The position numbers were made by a program, and so were the translations under genes. Below the pieces are notes generated by a model. That model was not told where the DNA came from. It worked only from the letters and a program-made list of their open reading frames with translations, and searched no databases. A stretch of DNA of 34,114 nucleotides from Alicyclobacillus sp. GTDB lineage: Bacteria; Bacillota; Bacilli; Alicyclobacillales; Alicyclobacillaceae. Positions 18,530-28,999 of this stretch are shown here, in pieces. The stretch is from assembly GCA_023511295.1 (NCBI GenBank), contig JAIMBT010000030.1, positions 1 to 34,114 of the forward strand, in the 5' to 3' direction. The first letter of the stretch is position 1; the number at the start of each line of letters is the position of its first letter.

Positions 18530-18541
18530 TGTGATGGAGTG

Positions 18542-20578
18542 ATGACCAGCGCGCTGACAGATCGGCAAAAGTACGTTCTGTACCTGCTGCTGGAACAACC
18601 AAACGGAGTGGATGCGGACGATTTGGCGCGCCGGCTCGATGTGAGTCGGCGCACCGTTCACCGCGACCTGCAGGCGATTGGCGACTTTCTCGCGCCCTAT
18701 CGCCTGCAACTGCGAGCGGAGCGCGGCCGACTCGCCATCGCAGGCGCCGCGGCGGACGTGGCGCGCATGCGCGAAGCGGCTGGTGTCCTGCCGAGGGCCC
18801 TCGCGGTTACGCCGCGCGACCGCGAGGTGCTGCTAGCCGCGCACCTCCTGTTGGAGGAAGGGCCACTCAAACTCGGTTACCTCGGGAAGCGCCTGCACGT
18901 GACCGCCGCCAGTCTGAGCCACCAGTTGGATGGGGTCGACGCCTGGCTGCAGGACAACGGGCTGAACGTCATACGGCGTCCAGGCTACGGCGTGGAAGTG
19001 ACCGGCGACGAAGTACGCCGGCGCGAGACGTTGGCAGACCTGCTCCACGCGCGGCTCTCGCCCATCGACCTCATGAAGGCTTTGCGCAACACGGACGGCG
19101 GCGAGACGCCCCCGTTGTTCCTGACGTGGCTCGAGCGCTGGTTCCACCGCACTTGGCTGAAACACGCCGAGGCGGTACTGCAAAGTGAACTGCAGCGGGT
19201 GACGCCGGCACTGGACGAGGCGTCGTTTTACAACTTCATGCTGCACGTCGTGCTTTCCTGCGCGCGCGTCCGACAGGGAGCGGAGATACCGGATCGCGGC
19301 GACGGTGCGGACAAACAGGGACCGGACGCAGCCATCTGCCGTCGCATCCTGGGACAGCTCTTGCCGGAGCAACCGGTACACGAGGGAGAAGTGGCTTATC
19401 TCGCAAAGCACCTGCGCGGCGCCAAGACGAAGATTGTCGAGGATGTCCGCCTGTTCCCGATGAACCTGACGGCGATGGACCTGGCGTTTCAGCTGACGCG
19501 AGAGCTCGAATTGTCCCTTGAGATTCCGCTCTCCAAAGATCAGGCCCTCGTCGCTGGTTTGGCGCAACACCTGGAACCCGCCATCCACCGGATGACGGTG
19601 GGACTGAGCATCCGTAATCCGCTGCTTGCCGAAGTGAAGCGTCAGTACCCAGACTTTTTCAAAGCGGTTGGGGATGCGACCAACCGGGTCCTCGAGCCGT
19701 ACGGCATCCAGGCACCGGAAGAGGAAATCGGGTACCTGACCATGCACCTCGGCGCAGCGTACGAACGGCGGCTGGCGGAGCGGATGTGGCGTGTGCGCAT
19801 CGTCTGCCCCAACGGCATCAGTTCCGCCCAATTGCTCGCAAGTCGGCTCAAAAAGGAATTCCCAAACATCCAGGTGACCGGCATCGAATCGCTGCAGTCG
19901 CTGCAAACGGAGGACGCCGACTTCGTCGTATCGACTGTAGCGGTCGACGACGGAGAGCGGCCCGTCGCAGTGGTCTCACCGTTTTTGACCGACGCCGACA
20001 TCGCCCGTGTGCAGGATATCATTGCGGGCTTGGAACGCCATCTATCCGCCGCAAAGGCAAAATCGGCCGCCGTTCGCCGAGACAGGCACTTCGAAGGGAG
20101 CAGTGCAGCGGCAGCGGCCATCGCGAGCCGGGCCGCCCTGTTCACAGTGGAAGTGGACGGGTTGTCCGCCGCCATCCACCGCGCGGCGGTCGATGCTGTG
20201 GAAGCCGGTGACGCCGCCGACGGCGAGGCGGTGCGGCAAGCCATCGTGCAGCGCGAGCGCCTTGGCAGTGTCGTCCTCCCCGGCAAACGCTTGGCGGTGC
20301 TACACGCACGGTCAGACGCGATGCACCGATGCAGGATTGCGGTCTACCGATTGCGCAGCCCAATCTCGGTTCGGGGGGTGGGCACCCAGGAGGAACCGGT
20401 GGACACCATCCTGGTGATGCTCGCGAGGGTGGACGAGGAACTCGACGTGATAGATCTGCTGGGAAGATTGAGTGCCATGCTCGTGACGGACCCACATTTG
20501 GTCGACGTGCTGAGCACAGAAGACATCGGCGGCGTGCGCCAGGCGCTGCTCACGTCGATGCAGAACTGCGAGGAGTGA
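18542..20578 (+). CDS. mtlR: MtlR, PRD-containing activator of the mannitol operon
   Basis: A 678-residue multidomain activator. Residues 5-60 are an HTH_11-type winged helix (DDLARRLDVSRRTVHRDLQAIG). A second Mga-like helix-turn-helix follows around 95-170. Two PRD domains follow (about 195-300 and 305-410; HLRGAKTKIV and TMHLGAAYERR mark their ends). Then comes a GAT-like EIIB domain (RIVCPNGISSAQLLASRL near 420; here the Cys is followed by PNGIS) and a C-terminal EIIA-like domain. Phosphorylation by PTS proteins at PRD and EII-like sites would tie activity to mannitol and glucose supply. The start is weakly defined: ATG 18542 or GTG 18539, with GGAG very close. It sits between mtlA and mtlF as in Geobacillus. 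Confidence 0.9.
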   Translation: MTSALTDRQKYVLYLLLEQPNGVDADDLARRLDVSRRTVHRDLQAIGDFLAPYRLQLRAERGRLAIAGAAADVARMREAAGVLPRALAVTPRDREVLLAAHLLLEEGPLKLGYLGKRLHVTAASLSHQLDGVDAWLQDNGLNVIRRPGYGVEVTGDEVRRRETLADLLHARLSPIDLMKALRNTDGGETPPLFLTWLERWFHRTWLKHAEAVLQSELQRVTPALDEASFYNFMLHVVLSCARVRQGAEIPDRGDGADKQGPDAAICRRILGQLLPEQPVHEGEVAYLAKHLRGAKTKIVEDVRLFPMNLTAMDLAFQLTRELELSLEIPLSKDQALVAGLAQHLEPAIHRMTVGLSIRNPLLAEVKRQYPDFFKAVGDATNRVLEPYGIQAPEEEIGYLTMHLGAAYERRLAERMWRVRIVCPNGISSAQLLASRLKKEFPNIQVTGIESLQSLQTEDADFVVSTVAVDDGERPVAVVSPFLTDADIARVQDIIAGLERHLSAAKAKSAAVRRDRHFEGSSAAAAAIASRAALFTVEVDGLSAAIHRAAVDAVEAGDAADGEAVRQAIVQRERLGSVVLPGKRLAVLHARSDAMHRCRIAVYRLRSPISVRGVGTQEEPVDTILVMLARVDEELDVIDLLGRLSAMLVTDPHLVDVLSTEDIGGVRQALLTSMQNCEE

Positions 20579-20582
20579 ACAG

Positions 20583-21017
20583 ATGATGCCAGTGATTCAA
20601 GTATCGAACGTGTTGTTGAACGTCCCCTCTGAACCGAAGACGGACGCCATCGTGCGGGTCGGTCGGAAGTTGGTGGAGAACGGCTACGTGGAAGAACCGT
20701 ACATTGACGGGATGCTGCTGCGCGAAGCGTCCATCACCACCTATATCGGCAATCAGGTCGCGATTCCCCACAGCATGCCGGAGTATGCGAAGTATATCCG
20801 CCAATCCGGCATTGTCGTGGCGCAGTACCCCGCCGGCGTCGATTTCGGCGAGGGGAACATCGCGAAGATTGTGATTGGCATCGCCGGCCGCGGCGAGGAG
20901 CACATGGAGGTGTTGTCGCAGATTGCGGCCGTGTGCATGGAAGAAGAGAACGTAGAGCGGTTGGCACAGGCCCAGACACCGGATGACGTGATTGCACTCT
21001 TGGGGGTGTCCCTGTGA
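20583..21017 (+). CDS. mtlF: PTS mannitol-specific EIIA component
   Basis: A 144-residue cytoplasmic phosphocarrier that passes phosphate from HPr to the EIIB cysteine of MtlA. The active-site histidine is H63 in GNQVAIPHSMPE, and the protein has normal EIIA-Mtl length. The ATG at 20583 is supported by GAGGAG ten bases upstream, placed inside the end of mtlR. The gene begins four bases after the mtlR stop and overlaps mtlD by four bases, so translation is coupled. Confidence 0.93.
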   Translation: MMPVIQVSNVLLNVPSEPKTDAIVRVGRKLVENGYVEEPYIDGMLLREASITTYIGNQVAIPHSMPEYAKYIRQSGIVVAQYPAGVDFGEGNIAKIVIGIAGRGEEHMEVLSQIAAVCMEEENVERLAQAQTPDDVIALLGVSL

Positions 21018-22189
21018 GCCGCGCGGTACACTTCGGCGCCGGCAACATCGGACGCGGGTTCATCGGCGAAGTCCTGGTTGAGAACGGCTATGACGTGCTG
21101 TTCGCCGACGTGGTGCCGACCCTCGTCGACGCCCTGGCGGCGCAGAGTGCGTATCGCGTCATCACGTTGGACGCCGAGATTGAAGTGAAAACCGTTCGCG
21201 GCGTCAGCGCGGTCCTACTGGACTCCGAGCCCTGCCGCGAAGCCGTGGCCGAGGCAGATCTCGTCACGACCGCCGTCGGCGTCGCCAACCTGGCATCCGT
21301 CGCAGCGGTCATTGCCGACGGCCTCACACGGCGCATGGCCCGCGGTGTGGCGAGCGCTCTGAACGTGATCGCCTGCGAAAACGCCGTTCGCGCGTCATCC
21401 ATCCTGCGCGAAATGGTGTGGTCGCTCGTCCAGCCAGAGGTGCGGATGTGGATGGAAGCGCACGTCGGCTTCCCAGACGCCGCCGTCGACCGCATTGCGC
21501 CAAATCGCGACGGCCACGCGACAGAGCCACTCGACGCCGTGGTGGAGCGACACTTCGAGTGGGACATCGAGCGGCCGGCCGTACGCGGCGAACTCCAGCT
21601 AAAAGGCGTCACCTTCGTCGACAACCTGGAACCGTATTTGGAACGCAAGCTGTACCTGGTCAACGGCGCCCACGCCGCGGCAGCGTACGCGGGGTACCGC
21701 CGCGGACGCCAGACTGTGATTGAGGCCATGGGCGACGCGACCATCCGCCGACTCGTCGAAGCCGTGCAGACCGAAGCGGTACTCGGCCTCAGCCACGCGT
21801 ACCCGGAACTCACCGCAGCGGCGCTGCACCAGTACGCGCAGACGGTGCGGGAGCGGTTTGGTAACCCGCACGTTGTTGATTCCGTTGATCGCGTTGGCCG
21901 AGATCCGCTGCGCAAGCTCGGCGGTACGGACCGGTTGTTTGGCCCGCTGCAGCTCGCACGCGCAGCCGGTGCAAGCACCCCCGGACTCGTCCGTGCCATC
22001 GCCTGCGCCCTCGCGTACGACAACCCCCGTGACCCCACGGCCGTCGAACTGCAGACACGCATCTCTGCGGGCGGCGTCCGTCACGCGGCGGCGGAGATTT
22101 CAGGATGCACCGACGACGCCGTGTTGGACGCCATCGCTGCCGACTACGAACGCGTGGTCGGCGGGGATTGGCGCCTGTTTGCCGACTGA
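21014..22189 (+). CDS. mtlD: Mannitol-1-phosphate 5-dehydrogenase
   Basis: A 391-residue NAD-dependent long-chain dehydrogenase that converts mannitol 1-phosphate to fructose 6-phosphate, which then enters glycolysis. The nucleotide-binding motif HFGAGNIGRGFIGE is at residues 5-18, and a second domain starts near 190. The catalytic-region signature KLYLVNGAHAAAAYAGYRRG is at about residues 214-233, with the expected Lys, Asn and His. The GTG start overlaps the mtlF stop (GTGA). It is the last gene of the operon. Confidence 0.92.
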   Translation: MSRAVHFGAGNIGRGFIGEVLVENGYDVLFADVVPTLVDALAAQSAYRVITLDAEIEVKTVRGVSAVLLDSEPCREAVAEADLVTTAVGVANLASVAAVIADGLTRRMARGVASALNVIACENAVRASSILREMVWSLVQPEVRMWMEAHVGFPDAAVDRIAPNRDGHATEPLDAVVERHFEWDIERPAVRGELQLKGVTFVDNLEPYLERKLYLVNGAHAAAAYAGYRRGRQTVIEAMGDATIRRLVEAVQTEAVLGLSHAYPELTAAALHQYAQTVRERFGNPHVVDSVDRVGRDPLRKLGGTDRLFGPLQLARAAGASTPGLVRAIACALAYDNPRDPTAVELQTRISAGGVRHAAAEISGCTDDAVLDAIAADYERVVGGDWRLFAD

Positions 22190-23714: not shown

Positions 23715-23743
23715 AGCACGCTCGGTGAGGGTGACTGTGCAAA

Positions 23744-23784
23744 GCGGTGCACCACCCCACGCCTTGAACGGGGTGGTGCACCGC
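23744..23784. terminator. Strong bidirectional terminator
   Basis: A perfect 15-bp stem, GCGGTGCACCACCCC against GGGGTGGTGCACCGC with an 11-base loop, lies between the convergent M20 peptidase and formamidase genes. AAA precedes it, which gives short T-runs on the minus strand. It serves both directions by position. Confidence 0.75.
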
Positions 23785-23796
23785 AGTCCAGCCGGA

Positions 23797-24693
23797 TTAC
23801 CAACGGAACCCTTTCCGCTCCAGAATCCAACGCGGGAGTTCCATCCGTACCGTCTTCTTCGGATCTACCACCTGACAGATGGCCAACTGTCCGGCCGCAG
23901 TCATCAGGAGCGCCGCTTCGCCCCGGTCCATTCCCAGTTCCTCGGCGAGGAATTCTGCCATATGGTAGACGGCAGCCTCAGCAGCCAGGTCCAGGTCCTC
24001 GTGGGACGCAATCGTCATCACGCGTTCGTTGTCCATCACCATAGGCACCGGCCAGCGTTTGTCTTTCAGCACCCGGAAGGAGACCGTCACCGCCCCCGCA
24101 ATCTCGACGCCGCAGACCCCGACTTCGCCGTCGCCCATCGCCGCATGCAAGTCTCCGAGCGCAAACAGCGCCCCTTTCACATTCACCGGCAGGATGAGGT
24201 GGGCACCTTCGGTAATGCGTTTGCAGTCCATGTTCCCGCCATGCGGACCCGGCGTACCACACGAGATGTCCTCCTCCGCCGGCGCCGTCCCAATCACCCC
24301 AATCATCGGGTTGATGGGAAGTTCAAAATCCGCAAACACGGCCTTGCCGTCGCGAACCGGAACCATTCGGACCACGTTCCGCTCCAAGGACGGGCCCATG
24401 ACGCCTAAATTGGGACCCGTGGTCATGACACCTTGGTCCGCAAGCTGGATGTGTTCGATGTGCACAGCCAGCAGGTCACCGGGTTCCGCCCCTTCGATAT
24501 ACACCGGCCCAGTCGCTGGATTGATGCGGTCCCAATCGATGCCCCCAAAGTCCTGGTCTTCCCGGGTGATTTGGTCTTCAAAGCAGTCACACGTGACAAA
24601 CACCGCGGTATCTCCGTCCTGCAGCGTCTGTACAGGTGGATTGTGCGGGGACATGGCGTAGATGACATTCGTTTTCGCGATGGTTGCCGACAT
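23797..24693 (-). CDS. Acetamidase/formamidase family amidase
   Basis: A 298-residue member of the FmdA/AmdA family that hydrolyses small amides to ammonia and the acid. Family stretches are DGDTAVFVTCDCFEDQI near residue 30, GPVYIEGAEPGDLLAVHIE near 60, FADFELPINPMIGVIGTAP near 125 and the GTPGPHGGNMDC block near 148. Later come GDLHAAMGDGEVGVCGVEIAG near 187 and a C-terminal GELNISQVVDP-like QLAICQVVDPKKTVRMELP. The ATG at 24693 follows AGGAGG by eight bases; a longer frame upstream lacks family similarity. The gene lies 94 bases after the permease gene and last in the sigma-54-controlled operon, suggesting release of ammonia from an imported or processed amide. The true substrate could be a larger amide than formamide. 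Confidence 0.87.
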   Translation of the reverse strand: MSATIAKTNVIYAMSPHNPPVQTLQDGDTAVFVTCDCFEDQITREDQDFGGIDWDRINPATGPVYIEGAEPGDLLAVHIEHIQLADQGVMTTGPNLGVMGPSLERNVVRMVPVRDGKAVFADFELPINPMIGVIGTAPAEEDISCGTPGPHGGNMDCKRITEGAHLILPVNVKGALFALGDLHAAMGDGEVGVCGVEIAGAVTVSFRVLKDKRWPVPMVMDNERVMTIASHEDLDLAAEAAVYHMAEFLAEELGMDRGEAALLMTAAGQLAICQVVDPKKTVRMELPRWILERKGFRW

Positions 24694-24787
24694 TCCAGAA
24701 ACCTCCTGTGCGATGGAGTGCGTACGGTCCTTGGCTATCCGTCCCGGCAGCAGGGCGCAACAAGCGTTCCGCGTCGTACAGTGAGAA

Positions 24788-26161
24788 TTATTCGGCAGAA
24801 TCCAAGTGAAGTCCTTTCGGCATGGCGCGGAAGCCTTTGGTCGACACGGCGAGCACAATCATGCCGAGGACGAACCAGGAAGCGCCGAGGATGAACGTGA
24901 TGCGGTCAAAATTGACCCAGACGTACAGCAGGACCGCGAAACCAATCAGCGGCATGACGAGGTGGGACCACCAGCGTTTAGATTTCTTCTTGCCGACGAA
25001 GTAGATCATCACCGTCAGGTTCAACGCCATGAACGTGGTGAGGGCTCCGAAATTCACCAGACGGCTCAGATTATCGATGGACATGACAAAGCTCACCACA
25101 AAGGAAATGACCGCGACAAGCAGCGTAGACGCGTAGGGGGTCTGAAACTTTGGGTGAACCTTGGACAGAAACCCAGGCAGCATCTTGTCGCGTCCCATGC
25201 TGTACAACAGACGGGAAATCGCAGCCTGCGCAGCCAGTGCATCCGCAATGCCCCAAGCCACGACCGTCGCCACCAGTGTGAGGAGCTTTAGCCACGTACC
25301 TCCGACCTTCTCGGCAACGAAGTAGAACGCCACGTTCGGGTCTGGGAACGACATGTAGTTCGGATAGGCCACCGCAGCCAAGTAGGTCAGAATCATGAAG
25401 AACACCGCCACCACGATGAGGGACCAGACGGTCGCCTTGCCCACCGTGGACCGACCTCCGGCGGTCTCCTCCGACAGCGTGGAGATCCCATCGAAGCCGA
25501 GAAAGCTGAGAACGGCCACAGAAGTTGCGGCTCCCACCATCCCCATGTTGAATTTGGCGGGGTTGATAATCGGAGCAGCTGTAAACGCCGTCCCATCTTT
25601 GCCGTGGGCGACGAACAGGAAAGCCATGATACAGAATAGGACGAACGTGATGACCTCCAAGATGAGGATGGCCCAGTTGGCTCGATTGGTCATTTCAATC
25701 CCACGGATATTGACGATGGTATTGATACCGATGAAGATGATTAGCCATCCCCACGTCGGAATGGCAGGGAGGAGCTGCGTCAGCCAAGACGCCGAGACAA
25801 GGTATAGCAGGGCCGGAACAAGGATGTAGTCGAGGAGAATCATCCATCCGGCGATGAAACCGACGTACGGGTTCCAGCCGCGTTGAACGTACGTGTAAGC
25901 GGACCCTGCCACCGGAAAGACCTCTGACATCTTGAAGTAGCTGAAGGCCGTAAAGATCATACCGACGAGGCCAATAAAATACGCGAAGACCACCATTCCA
26001 TTGGCCGTTTGAACGACTTGGCCATAGATTCCCATCGGCGCAATGGGTACCATAAAGATGAGACCGTAAACCAACAGATCCCAAAAGCTCAGGGAACGCT
26101 TCAGCTCCTGTTTGTATCCGAACTGCTCGACGGATGCGTCGCTCGCCACCATCTTGGACAT
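24788..26161 (-). CDS. APC family amino acid/polyamine permease (PuuP-like)
   Basis: A 457-residue secondary transporter with about 12 membrane segments. It begins with LKRSLSFWDLLVYGLIFMVP, the usual APC start, and has PVAGSAYTYVQRGWNPYVGF near residue 85, LGFDGISTLSEE near 220 and ALAAQAAISRLLYSMGRDKMLP near 305. It most resembles putrescine/amine importers of the PuuP or YbeC type. The ATG at 26161 has GGAGG nine bases upstream. It lies 86 bases after a glutamine-synthetase-like gene, as puuP does near puuA, so import of an amine that is then glutamylated is likely (inference). Other amino acids remain possible. Confidence 0.87.
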   Translation of the reverse strand: MSKMVASDASVEQFGYKQELKRSLSFWDLLVYGLIFMVPIAPMGIYGQVVQTANGMVVFAYFIGLVGMIFTAFSYFKMSEVFPVAGSAYTYVQRGWNPYVGFIAGWMILLDYILVPALLYLVSASWLTQLLPAIPTWGWLIIFIGINTIVNIRGIEMTNRANWAILILEVITFVLFCIMAFLFVAHGKDGTAFTAAPIINPAKFNMGMVGAATSVAVLSFLGFDGISTLSEETAGGRSTVGKATVWSLIVVAVFFMILTYLAAVAYPNYMSFPDPNVAFYFVAEKVGGTWLKLLTLVATVVAWGIADALAAQAAISRLLYSMGRDKMLPGFLSKVHPKFQTPYASTLLVAVISFVVSFVMSIDNLSRLVNFGALTTFMALNLTVMIYFVGKKKSKRWWSHLVMPLIGFAVLLYVWVNFDRITFILGASWFVLGMIVLAVSTKGFRAMPKGLHLDSAE

Positions 26162-26218
26162 ACCGCTCAACCTCCGTTCCTCTCAACGTTCAGTATCCTC
26201 TCGAGCACAGGTCTCGCC

Positions 26219-26249
26219 GACGCCGGTGCACCCGTGTTTCGTCGGCGTC
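26219..26249 (-). other. Short inverted repeat at the ligase stop codon
   Basis: GACGCCG (26219-26225) and CGGCGTC (26243-26249) form a 7-bp stem spanning the ligase stop and the ligase-permease gap. It may tune the ratio of the two products; it lacks a T-run. Confidence 0.28.
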
Positions 26250-27612
26250 AAAAGACATCCCCGTACTCCTCCAGCTCCCAGTCCGTCACGTGTCGTAAAA
26301 ACCGTTCGTACTCCAATCGCCGAAGCGCCAGATAGTGCTCCACGAAGGCTGGGCCGAGTACCTCCTTCGCCCACGCATCCCGCTCTAGGTCATCCAAGGC
26401 TTCGCCGAGTGAACGTGGAAGCAAACGCGAGGCAGAAGCATACGCGTTTTCGGTCGGCCCGCAGGCCGCGCCAGGTTCCATCCGCTGCCGAATCCCATCC
26501 AGCCCGGCCGCCAGCGTGATAGCCAACGCGACGTATGGATTCGTGTCAGCCCCAGGCAGGCGGTTTTCCACGCGCGTATCGCTACCTCGAGCGGCCGGAA
26601 TCCGAATCATGCATGAACGGTTGTCATACCCCCACGAGACTCTATCCGGAGCGAACGTTCCAGCCTGCAACCTCTTGTAGCTGTTCACGGTGGAGTTGCA
26701 CAACGCGCTGATGGTTCGAGCATGGTACAGCTGACCACCAACGAACCACCGGCAACAATCGGACAGTCCGTCTGGTTGGTTCGGATCGAAGAAGATGTTC
26801 CTGTCCCCCGAATCGTGAACGGAATGGTGCAGATGCGCCCCGCTGCCGCTCATCCCGTTCCTGGGCTTACTGAGAAAAGACGCCCGATAGCCCTTTTGAG
26901 CCAGAATTTCCTTGATGCTGGAGCGGTAATAGAAGGCCATGTCGGCAATCTCGACGCCCCAAAAAGGTGAATTCGACACTTCGAATTGACCAGCTCCGTA
27001 CTCCGTGTTGGCAGCTTCCGGACCAGCCCCCATCTCGGTGAGATGATTGAGGACTGCGAGGATCACAGATTCTACCTCTGCCTGCTTGGTCTCTGCGAAA
27101 CACTGGAGCCCATCCCACGCCGGTTTCAGTGTCCCTTCCACTTCGCGAAACGCGTAAAACTCGTACTCGAAAGACCCTAGGACGCGGTACCCGAGCGCGT
27201 CGTACTCGGACAGTACGCGTTTGAGCACCTGTCGTGGCGCGAGTGGCACTGGCTCCGCTTCGGCGGTCACGACATCGGCGATGATTCGCGCCACACCGGG
27301 AGCGTACGGAAGGACGCTGAAGGATTTTAAATCCAAGTCCAGATACCAACTCGGGTACCCGCCGGTATAGGTCTCTCCGACGCCCCTTTGCAATGCTGCA
27401 GCCGTATCGAGCGAAAACAAGGCCGACGGAAAGGACAGGCGGGCGTCTCCAGAAAGCAGTTGCAGGAAACGGCGAACGGGTACGTAACGAGACCGCGACA
27501 CGTTTGATACATCCTGTACACAAACCCGCACAGTCTGGATTTGGTGCTGTCTGATAGCCTCTTGGATGTGTGGAATCCAATTGGATTCCATCTCCCTTTC
27601 GGCGCGGGTCAT
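26248..27612 (-). CDS. Glutamine synthetase family ligase (gamma-glutamylamine synthetase-like)
   Basis: A 454-residue member of the GlnA type I fold that probably joins glutamate to an amine using ATP. Active-site blocks are FEYEFY near residue 147, NTEYGAGQFE near 204 (metal-binding Glu), GSGAHLHHSV near 256 (the HxH region) and RIPAARGSDTRVENRLPGAD near 340. The glutamine-synthetase adenylylation loop and the GlnA N-terminal beta-grasp signature are not evident, and the family looks closer to PuuA/GlnA3-type enzymes that act on polyamines, ethanolamine or anilines. The ATG at 27612 follows AAAGGGG; a long upstream extension of the frame is unlike the family. It is the first gene after a sigma-54 promoter. 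Confidence 0.87.
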   Translation of the reverse strand: MTRAEREMESNWIPHIQEAIRQHQIQTVRVCVQDVSNVSRSRYVPVRRFLQLLSGDARLSFPSALFSLDTAAALQRGVGETYTGGYPSWYLDLDLKSFSVLPYAPGVARIIADVVTAEAEPVPLAPRQVLKRVLSEYDALGYRVLGSFEYEFYAFREVEGTLKPAWDGLQCFAETKQAEVESVILAVLNHLTEMGAGPEAANTEYGAGQFEVSNSPFWGVEIADMAFYYRSSIKEILAQKGYRASFLSKPRNGMSGSGAHLHHSVHDSGDRNIFFDPNQPDGLSDCCRWFVGGQLYHARTISALCNSTVNSYKRLQAGTFAPDRVSWGYDNRSCMIRIPAARGSDTRVENRLPGADTNPYVALAITLAAGLDGIRQRMEPGAACGPTENAYASASRLLPRSLGEALDDLERDAWAKEVLGPAFVEHYLALRRLEYERFLRHVTDWELEEYGDVF

Positions 27613-27681: not shown

Positions 27682-27697
27682 AGCAAGATTGATGCCA
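27682..27697 (-). promoter_or_regulatory. Sigma-54 promoter of the ligase-permease-amidase operon
   Basis: On the minus strand TGGCAT-CAATC-TTGCT matches the -24/-12 consensus TGGCAC-N5-TTGCW with one mismatch and exact spacing. It lies about 70 bases upstream of the ligase ATG and faces the operon. The divergent gene encodes a sigma-54 activator. The 319-base gap 27613-27931 holds this promoter, the palindrome at 27825 and the activator's own promoter. Confidence 0.8.
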
Positions 27698-27824: not shown

Positions 27825-27846
27825 ATTGGTGCAATATCGAACCAAT
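27825..27846. promoter_or_regulatory. Candidate enhancer site for the sigma-54 activator
   Basis: ATTGGT-N10-ACCAAT is a perfect inverted repeat about 130-150 bases upstream of the -24 element, a normal distance for an activator that loops DNA. A nearby GCACCAA at 27861-27867 mirrors TTGGTGC at 27826-27832, so a second half-site may exist. It also lies upstream of the activator's own promoter. Confidence 0.5.
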
Positions 27847-27873: not shown

Positions 27874-27902
27874 TTGATGCAAGCGGGTGTATCCGCTATC
27901 TT
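27874..27902 (+). promoter_or_regulatory. Sigma-A promoter of the sigma-54 activator gene
   Basis: TTGATG (27874-27879), a 17-base spacer and TATCTT (27897-27902), followed by a leader of about 23 bases to the GTG at 27932. Confidence 0.5.
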
Positions 27903-27931
27903 TGGCCTATCACGCGCAAGGAGGAGCGCTC

Positions 27932-28999
27932 GTGAACGCACTGGGAGACGTGGTGATTCAGAGCCGGACGATGCAAGCGTTGTTTGCCAAAGCGCGGCGC
28001 ATGGCAGCCTTTCCGTCGACCATCCTCATCGAGGGGGAGAGCGGAGTCGGAAAGGAGGTCGTGGCTAATTGGGTTCACCAGCATAGCCCGCGCAACACCA
28101 TGCCGTTCATCAAAATCAACTGCGCCTCTATCCCGGAGTCCCTGCTCGAGTCTGAACTGTTCGGTTACGAACGCGGCTCATTTACGGGGGCGAAGCAAGA
28201 AGGGAAACCGGGCTTGTTTGAGTTGGCCGACAAGGGGACGTTGTTGTTGGATGAAATCAGCGAGCTTTCACAGTCCATGCAGGCGAAGTTGTTGCGCGTG
28301 CTGCAGGACCGAGAGGTGCGGAGGGTCGGGGGAAGTTGGTCGCGCGTGATTGACGTTCGTATCCTCGCCAGTACCAATGCCCACCTACGTGAACGGGTTC
28401 AATGCGGAACGTTTCGGGAAGATCTCTACCATCGCTTGAACGTCGGCTTCTTGCACATTCCACCGCTACGATCACGGCCGGAGGACATCGAACCGCTCCT
28501 TGACCATTACATGGCGGCTCTGTGTCAGTACCTCGGCATCACGCGGCGCCTATCCCCTGAGGCAAGGGCCGCGCTTCTTCGATACCCATTTCCGGGGAAT
28601 ATTCGAGAACTACGGAACCTGTTGGAAGGTCTATGCATCAGCGCGGCCGAGGAAGAGATCTCACCGGACGACCTGCCGGCGTACGTCCTCACCCCTGAAA
28701 CCGACGCGCGCCTGGGCGCATGGGCGAACGTGGAGAGAGGCCCATTCAGTGACCGAATCGGCGTGGAGCCCGACGGCTTGAACCGGACTGTATCAGATAG
28801 CCGCGTTCGTGAACCGTCCGGGCTTCGGTCGGAAGGAGCCGGGGCTTCCCTGCAGCAGCGGCTGGATGCATACGAACGCCGACTGCTGGAAGAAGCCCTA
28901 CACGAGGCAACGAGTATTCGGAACGCCGCAAAACGGCTGAACGTCAGCCACTCGACCCTGGTCCGTAAGCTCAAGAAGTACCGGCTTCACGACCACTGA
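27932..28999 (+). CDS. Sigma-54-dependent activator lacking a sensory domain (AAA+ plus Fis-type HTH)
   Basis: A 355-residue enhancer-binding protein. The AAA+ domain starts almost at once: Walker A GESGVGKE at 35-42, the sigma-54 contact loop GSFTGA at 82-87 (usual form GAFTGA), Walker B LLLDE at 104-108, and RFREDLYHRLN-like TFREDLYHRLNVGFLHIPPL near 165. A linker of about 70 residues leads to a Fis-type helix-turn-helix at the C-terminus (NAAKRLNVSHSTLVRKLKKY). No PAS, GAF or receiver domain precedes the motor, so the signal must come through a partner protein, expression level or the linker. GTG 27932 is set by AAGGAGG seven bases upstream. It is divergent from the operon it most likely controls. 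Confidence 0.87.
   Translation: MNALGDVVIQSRTMQALFAKARRMAAFPSTILIEGESGVGKEVVANWVHQHSPRNTMPFIKINCASIPESLLESELFGYERGSFTGAKQEGKPGLFELADKGTLLLDEISELSQSMQAKLLRVLQDREVRRVGGSWSRVIDVRILASTNAHLRERVQCGTFREDLYHRLNVGFLHIPPLRSRPEDIEPLLDHYMAALCQYLGITRRLSPEARAALLRYPFPGNIRELRNLLEGLCISAAEEEISPDDLPAYVLTPETDARLGAWANVERGPFSDRIGVEPDGLNRTVSDSRVREPSGLRSEGAGASLQQRLDAYERRLLEEALHEATSIRNAAKRLNVSHSTLVRKLKKYRLHDH

Follow-up and report, generated by a model that had tools for sequence, protein, structure and literature searches.

We analysed a stretch of 34,114 nucleotides (nt) from Alicyclobacillus sp. (assembly GCA_023511295.1, contig JAIMBT010000030.1, positions 1 to 34,114; hereafter the window), which is contig C3 of a 3.43-Mb genome. 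On its minus strand, the window encodes a glutamine-synthetase-like ligase (26248..27612, 454 amino acids (aa); Gln-synt_C, 314.5 bits), a permease of the APC superfamily (24788..26161; PF13520, AA_permease_2, 133.6 bits), and a short-type amidase of the FmdA_AmdA family (23797..24693, 298 aa; PF03069, 117.8 bits), in that order and with intergenic gaps below 100 nt. Each gene has an ATG start with a ribosome-binding site (at 27612, 26161, and 24693, the last preceded by AGGAGG). Upstream of the ligase on the same strand lie a -24/-12 sigma-54 promoter, TGGCATCAATCTTGCT (27682..27697, 10/12 matches), and a dyad, GGTTCGATATTGCACC (27828..27843), a possible activator-binding site whose start lies 146 nt upstream of the promoter's. 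Beyond them, divergent from the operon, a plus-strand gene (27887..28999) encodes a sigma-54 activator without a sensor domain (PF00158, 220.7 bits; AAA_lid_14; HTH_50 at the end), whose AAA+ domain begins at residue 23 and whose likely start is GTG 27932. This gene lies just outside the region described in an earlier note on the same DNA, which had proposed a three-gene sigma-54 operon; the Pfam matches, short gaps, conserved promoter, and divergent activator together confirm that proposal.

The ligase was compared with E. coli GlnA, numbered without its first methionine. In the alignment, the window ligase is substituted at four residues of the ammonium site (D50 to P, S53 to A, Y179 to C, and E327 to F), and all nine ligases linked to this amidase in the alignment, the window and eight others, share the same P, A, C, and F. 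The residues for glutamate, metal, and ATP are kept (E129, E131, E212, E220, G265, H269, R321, R339, R344, and R359), and at position 264, N in GlnA, the window ligase has S and PuuA has A. The ligase of a plasmid locus, L195, likewise has P at position 50 and F at position 327, and E. coli PuuA shows the same kind of loss, with D50 replaced by P and E327 by Y. The genome's canonical GlnA, on contig C7, retains all compared residues, including D50 and E327. The loss of the ammonium site led us to reject a glutamine synthetase function for the window ligase. The portion of PMC6529630 available describes D50 and E327 as conserved neither in PauA7 nor in GlnA4, a proven ethanolamine ligase whose model has F331 replacing E327, and the available part of PMC11335346 describes a GoaS class, including NpaA1 and AtdA1, that has lost the Glu-flap and Asp50' residues. 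As far as those sources go, these enzymes have likewise lost the ammonium residues and kept those for glutamate, metal, and ATP; they differ in their partners, the window ligase standing with an amidase and an APC permease rather than with dioxygenases or dehydrogenases. The window ligase therefore resembles glutamyl-amine ligases and not glutamine synthetase, with a probable gamma-glutamyl-amine ligase activity. The earlier description of it as glutamylamine-synthetase-like is thus supported by the active-site residues, despite a score of 255 bits on the curated PuuA model (NCBIfam GGputSyn), short of the cut-off of 650. The linked ligases form one clade (support 100/99; 18 rows, 9 of them linked), beside which stand sister ligases without an amidase neighbour. 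One of these is in the same genome, on contig C13 (L045:11438-14504), where a second glutamyl-amine-type ligase, 45% identical to the window's, adjoins a different AA_permease_2 protein.

The permease had been called PuuP-like, which is fair but loose (33% identity to E. coli PuuP, the nearest of five permeases compared, 32% to PlaP, and 27% over 77 aa to YbaT). A 93-row tree groups the amidase-linked permeases with a few others in an 82-row clade (support 96), and PuuP and PlaP pair together outside it (Shimodaira-Hasegawa-like approximate likelihood ratio test, SH-aLRT, 100), so that the window permease belongs to an amidase-linked subfamily related to, but distinct from, the PuuP/PlaP branch. 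We would like to note that this was a quick tree with long outgroup branches and program warnings, from which 11 rows were omitted: six fragments or poor matches (L040, L106, L125, L126, L127, and L170) and five copies (L049 and L051-L054, which duplicate L036-L039 and L044). The amidase clears the PF03069 gathering score of 27 bits and fails the curated formamidase equivalog (NCBIfam NF045496) with 83 bits against 500, for which reason formamidase was rejected as its function. Its relatives of solved structure are 2ii1 (E 2.7e-88) and 3tkk (E 7.5e-85). In an amidase tree without the same five copies, the enzymes that accompany this permease clade are spread over several long-branched groups, and how these groups join is uncertain. 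A second FmdA/AmdA family member is encoded on contig C29 of the genome (174.5 bits).

Sigma-54 control of the operon is predicted from three features found together: RpoN is encoded in the genome (contig C20), a -24/-12 site precedes the ligase, and the adjacent AAA+ activator has a GAFTGA-type loop, here the variant GSFTGA. Judged within the window alone, the -24/-12 site is not significant (with 3 mismatches allowed, the window has 55 matches and shuffles average 59). The site is credible because it is conserved across the loci of the ligase clade, where a site of at least 10/12 was found upstream of the ligase in 9/9 scanned distinct loci, corresponding to 14/14 locus records. These sites, of which TGGCACGAAAATTGCT is an example, begin 59-149 nt ahead of the ligase match. 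Outside the ligase clade, 2/83 scanned loci had a site, one with an activator of its own (L102) and one on a short contig (L106); the scan skipped loci with fewer than 200 nt upstream. Two further activator-bearing loci, L066 and L067, have operons that begin with another gene, and 11/12 sites stand at that gene. Across the genome, the pattern TGGCAYNNNNNTTGCW retrieved 12 matches, the window's promoter among them, against 4 for a reversed control. Five of these 12 lie within 2 kb of the five strong activator matches in the genome, and each activator therefore seems to serve its own neighbour.

The dyad upstream of the promoter is proposed as a candidate activator-binding site. Its consensus, GGTKCR-N4-TGMACC, was derived from the same loci in which it was scored, so that its score of 12/12 in 5/9 loci, including the window, at 133-146 nt upstream of the promoter is partly circular. 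The dyad is weak in L040 (9/12) and L044 (10/12) and at chance level in L063 (8/12) and L163 (9/12), and L195 is the only locus whose half-site counts clearly exceed those of shuffles, the excess in L036 and L037 being weak. The plasmid locus L195, which was found later, encodes an activator without the GAFTGA loop; a scan upstream for a -24/-12 site found none, and four TGAACC/GGTTCA half-sites are retained. The joint loss of loop and promoter fits a switch away from sigma-54 in that locus. L063 (2300-5373) encodes two consecutive sigma-54 activators; the one that adjoins the sensorless activator has CBS and PAS domains and is a possible source of the missing signal input.

The set of activator, ligase, permease, and amidase was found in nine distinct loci: the window, L036-L039, L044, L063, L163, and L195. 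Its recurrence in eight further distinct loci shows it to be a real module. The genes run ligase-permease-amidase in the window, L036-L039, and L044, and ligase-amidase-permease in L063, L163, and L195. Presence and absence were judged by tblastn within the fetched stretches, which in some cases stop at the edge of a contig; open reading frame (ORF) calls were mechanical, with shadow ORFs in loci rich in guanine and cytosine (GC). The distribution is patchy, as the set or the variant seen in L040 occurs in 7/61 genomes (the window's own and 60 relatives). A further locus, L048, has a partial ligase, permease, and amidase at a contig edge. L159 (8818-9177) has a 121-aa remnant of a linked ligase beside the permease and amidase, which suggests that the ligase was lost there and the pair kept. 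The earlier note had called for a survey of this three-gene set and had held that unlinked genes elsewhere would count against it. Linkage in the eight other loci bears the set out; the objection holds only in part, as the permease and amidase are often found without a ligase, there are sister ligases with no amidase, and the permease is missing from L040. A description of this gene set was not found in the open-access literature searched, judged mostly from titles and abstracts; in the part of PMC3662644 available, on GlnR of M. smegmatis, an Acetamidase/Formamidase gene is listed and this set was not seen.

The permease and amidase are partners well beyond these loci. A permease profile search of named genomes was taken to the best 80 of 93 relatives, a sample rich in near-copies (10 Frigoribacterium, 16 Enterobacterales, and 5 loci duplicated from the genome collection). 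An AmdA-family gene adjoins the permease in 69 of these 80 loci, and in 62 of the 69 no glutamine-synthetase-like match was found in the fetched stretch. In a less biased draw of 398 genomes of the phylum, 12, the window's own included, had the permease at E <=1e-80; the amidase gene adjoins it in all six other genomes at 50% identity or more (G143, G144, G179, G310, G236, and G252) and in 0/5 of those at 39% or less. The pair was found in Bacillota, Pseudomonadota, Actinomycetota, Chloroflexota, and Deinococcota, mostly without the ligase, and its hosts include Klebsiella, Streptosporangium, and Eggerthellaceae. Since the pair usually occurs without a detected ligase, the permease and amidase look like a widespread core, and the ligase and sigma-54 control look like additions to it.

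Within the 82-row permease clade, 75 rows have an AmdA neighbour. Another hydrolase stands beside the permease in four of the seven that do not: an alpha/beta hydrolase in L089, a Peptidase_S58 protein in L102, and M20 and amidohydrolase proteins with a different ligase in L066 and L067. L050 is a short contig, and the remaining two rows (L117 and L119) are considered below. A permease relative was present in 44 plasmid records; of the seven opened, four have an adjoining AmdA gene (L192, L193, L195, and L196), and L191 has a proline-iminopeptidase-family hydrolase beside the permease. The opened records annotate the pair merely as "APC family permease" and "acetamidase/formamidase family protein". 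A class-III aminotransferase is encoded in L066 (in L067 the same was assigned only by co-clustering), and an annotated succinate-semialdehyde dehydrogenase in L193 and L194, kilobases away in both; these neighbours weakly favour an omega-amino substrate. Other hydrolase partners may exist, as a more distant permease in L165 (5482-7672; 38%) follows a gene that by eye resembles isochorismatase/nicotinamidase-family hydrolases and is possibly another amide hydrolase. In L192 (NZ_CP081715.1, an E. coli IncY plasmid), the pair is close to an IS26 copy and may be mobile.

On the question of Puu genes, the earlier note had taken PuuB, PuuC, and PuuD to be absent. On the window's contig, no match to PuuB, PuuC, or the C26 family of PuuD was found (the PuuB search having no positive control), and the relatives' loci were not systematically searched for linked puuB, puuC, or puuD. 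Genome-wide, the absence is only partly borne out: PuuB had no match, again without a positive control, but six aldehyde dehydrogenases elsewhere are 33-38% identical to PuuC, and contig C20 encodes one good C26 peptidase (227 bits). C20 carries none of the 12 strict sigma-54 matches. On contigs C14, C15, and C33, such a match and a PuuC-like dehydrogenase occur together, separated by about 6 to 21 kb. The C26 peptidase gene itself adjoins genes which we read by eye as a dipeptide-type ABC transporter. Similar to the E. coli Puu pathway (puuP, puuA, puuD, puuR, puuC, puuB, and puuE), the window has an APC permease and a glutamyl-amine-type ligase, both only distantly related to PuuP and PuuA; unlike it, the window has the amidase and sigma-54 control, and its contig has no oxidase, dehydrogenase, or C26 hydrolase match.

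We tentatively propose, at somewhat less than even confidence, that the operon imports an amino-amide, hydrolyses its carboxamide, and glutamylates its amine, without any oxidation. This branch of APC permeases transports amines or amino acids, and ligases of this type act on amines. Because the permease subfamily usually keeps some hydrolase even where no ligase is present, an amide is its probable cargo; a compound bearing an amine as well as a carboxamide would satisfy permease, ligase, and amidase alike. The activator would bind the GGTKCR-N4-TGMACC dyad and open the -24/-12 promoter, and the permease would import the amino-amide. The amidase would release ammonia and leave a carboxylate, and the ligase would use ATP to attach glutamate to the amine, either before the amidase has acted or afterwards. 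Steps of the PuuB and PuuC type would not be needed, because the carbon would already be at the carboxyl level. The glutamyl bond would be cut later, in trans, by an unlinked gamma-glutamyl hydrolase such as the C26 peptidase on C20, and bacteria in which the pair was seen without a ligase would use the free amino acid directly. As a purely speculative candidate, 4-aminobutanamide would yield gamma-glutamyl-gamma-aminobutyrate (gamma-glutamyl-GABA), the last Puu intermediate.

With less confidence still, we suggest a wider picture: a widespread, undescribed module consisting of an amide-specific, PuuP-like permease branch with exchangeable hydrolases (FmdA/AmdA proteins of several groups, alpha/beta, S58, and M20/amidohydrolase), to which glutamyl-amine ligases from different branches may have been added at least twice. 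The Alicyclobacillus-type version would be an amide-entry glutamylation pathway that obtains its carboxylate by hydrolysis and involves no amine oxidation. The earlier idea of a short route for amine or amide nitrogen survives with its roles turned round, the permease and amidase looking like the core and the ligase and sigma-54 control like additions. If the proposal is correct, it would show what the permease-amidase pair of soil, gut, and plasmid-bearing bacteria in several phyla does and which class of substrates to test on it, would reveal a way to use glutamylation without oxidative chemistry, and would explain how a glutamine-synthetase-like ligase serves without adjacent Puu genes.

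Several points weigh against the amino-amide proposal. Characterised FmdA/AmdA members act on simple amides such as formamide, according to the part of PMC10781810 available, and simple amides of this kind need no APC permease. No gamma-glutamyl hydrolase lies within the operon. The activator loop is non-canonical in the window and in L163 (GAFTGG), though the promoter site is kept in both. L040 lacks the permease although it has activator, ligase, and amidase, and the one permease sequence in it is a fragment of a different protein, close to a TnpB-like gene. No amidase was recognised in L117 or L119, the former having a tannase-family gene downstream. Among the plasmids, no amidase was found directly beside the permease in L194, and the more distant permease of L197 (40% identity) adjoins a cyclase-family protein rather than an amino-amide hydrolase.

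The same gene set would fit the import of an N-substituted amide (an N-acyl amine) from which the amidase frees an amine for the ligase to glutamylate, since an amine ligase is useful after amide cleavage. The cyclase-family neighbour in L197 (PF04199), which we take to be kynurenine-formamidase-like, also points this way. We nevertheless consider this unlikely. The alpha/beta and S58 hydrolases that replace the amidase are of types that often act on free-amino substrates, and the characterised FmdA/AmdA enzymes act on unsubstituted short amides, as far as the available portion of PMC10781810 describes them.

In a version that follows the earlier note, the PuuA-like ligase would glutamylate an imported amine, and the amidase would stand in for PuuB, PuuC, and PuuD by acting on the gamma-glutamyl compound. 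The PuuA/GlnA4-type active site of the ligase, the permease's being nearest to PuuP of the five compared, and the failure to find PuuB (in that search without a positive control) agree with this version, which we regard as improbable. The amidase is a regular partner of the permease subfamily in five phyla, mostly without the ligase, and cannot depend on a glutamylated intermediate in the 62 of 69 loci (among the best 80 of 93 relatives) where no ligase was detected. Moreover, there would be no gain in forming a bond with the ligase only to hydrolyse it again.

Slightly less probable again is the scavenging of formamide or acetamide, with the glutamine-synthetase-like protein capturing the released ammonia; we think it a poor prospect. 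The name of the amidase family and the sigma-54 operon are consistent with scavenging, sigma-54 control often being tied to nitrogen supply. However, the four ammonium-site residues are replaced in every linked ligase aligned, the canonical GlnA on C7 has D50 and E327 intact, the amidase falls far short on the formamidase equivalog (83 of 500 bits), and the family member on C29 would be the more obvious short-amide enzyme. A formamidase beside an uptake system is known from fmdCABDEF of Methylophilus methylotrophus, and the table of the review concerned (PMC10781810, available in part) assigns that formamidase to the FmdA-AmdA family. That system differs in having binding-protein-dependent uptake and a porin for short amides and urea, and the part available mentions no ligase.

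Very improbable, in our view, is a role for the amidase as a relief valve that hydrolyses excess gamma-glutamyl-amine, like the glutamine amidotransferase (GAT)-like AtdA2 in aniline degradation (described in the available part of PMC11335346). Ligase and amidase do share an operon, and in L040 they occur together without the permease, but the amidase-permease pair without the ligase is the commoner state. Least probable of all is acid resistance through amide import and ammonia release: many Alicyclobacillaceae are acidophiles, and the two-gene glsA-ybaT unit, which has an acid-resistance role in E. coli, shares the design of an amide hydrolase with an APC permease, but its hydrolase is of another family, YbaT is a remote relative, it includes no ligase, the pair also occurs in Klebsiella, Streptosporangium, and Eggerthellaceae, and an ATP-spending ligase would not help buffering.

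A hydrolase paired with a glutamyl ligase is also known from the FluG type, whose amidohydrolase is of another superfamily (PMC6478659, in the part available). Plasmids of Deinococcus aetherius and D. taeanensis carry the amidase and permease near a ligase-amidohydrolase pair, in which the ligase comes from a different branch (31% identity to the window ligase). Contig C35 of the window's genome (L046:4033-8027) encodes a FluG-like pair, a glutamine-synthetase-like ligase and an Amidohydro_2 protein, with an amino acid permease, and this ligase is 41-45% identical to the ligases near the amidase and permease in Deinococcus.

Some observations concern the surroundings of the pair in other loci. 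In the Bacillus- and Paenibacillus-type loci L055, L057-L060, L064, L083, and L104, the amidase-permease pair comes after genes for a histidine kinase and a response regulator of the AraC type, and LysR, MarR, or GntR regulators are near it in single loci checked. Among the chosen ORFs scanned, no recurring further enzyme was seen beside the pair. L055, L057, and L060 encode an additional protein of about 450 aa, for which the two of three scanned gave no Pfam match. The plasmid carrying L195 (CP053689.1) is labelled Arthrobacter citreus NEB 577; its stretch has 37.5% GC and its ligase is closest to Bacillota ones, and the organism label may be wrong.

Flanking genes were rejected as members of the module, YetF- and TatC-family genes being common only to L036, L037, and L039, which belong to one genus. 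Downstream of the amidase gene, a perfect 15-bp inverted repeat (23744..23784, assigned to neither strand) is a possible bidirectional terminator. It has no T run and was not called by the terminator scan; the stretch 23735-23795 folds at -36.6 kcal/mol (z -3.81), with 2/200 shuffles equally good. Further along, at 18539-22189, the window encodes a PRD/EIIA regulator, followed by genes that by eye resemble a mannitol phosphotransferase system EIIA and mannitol-1-phosphate dehydrogenase.

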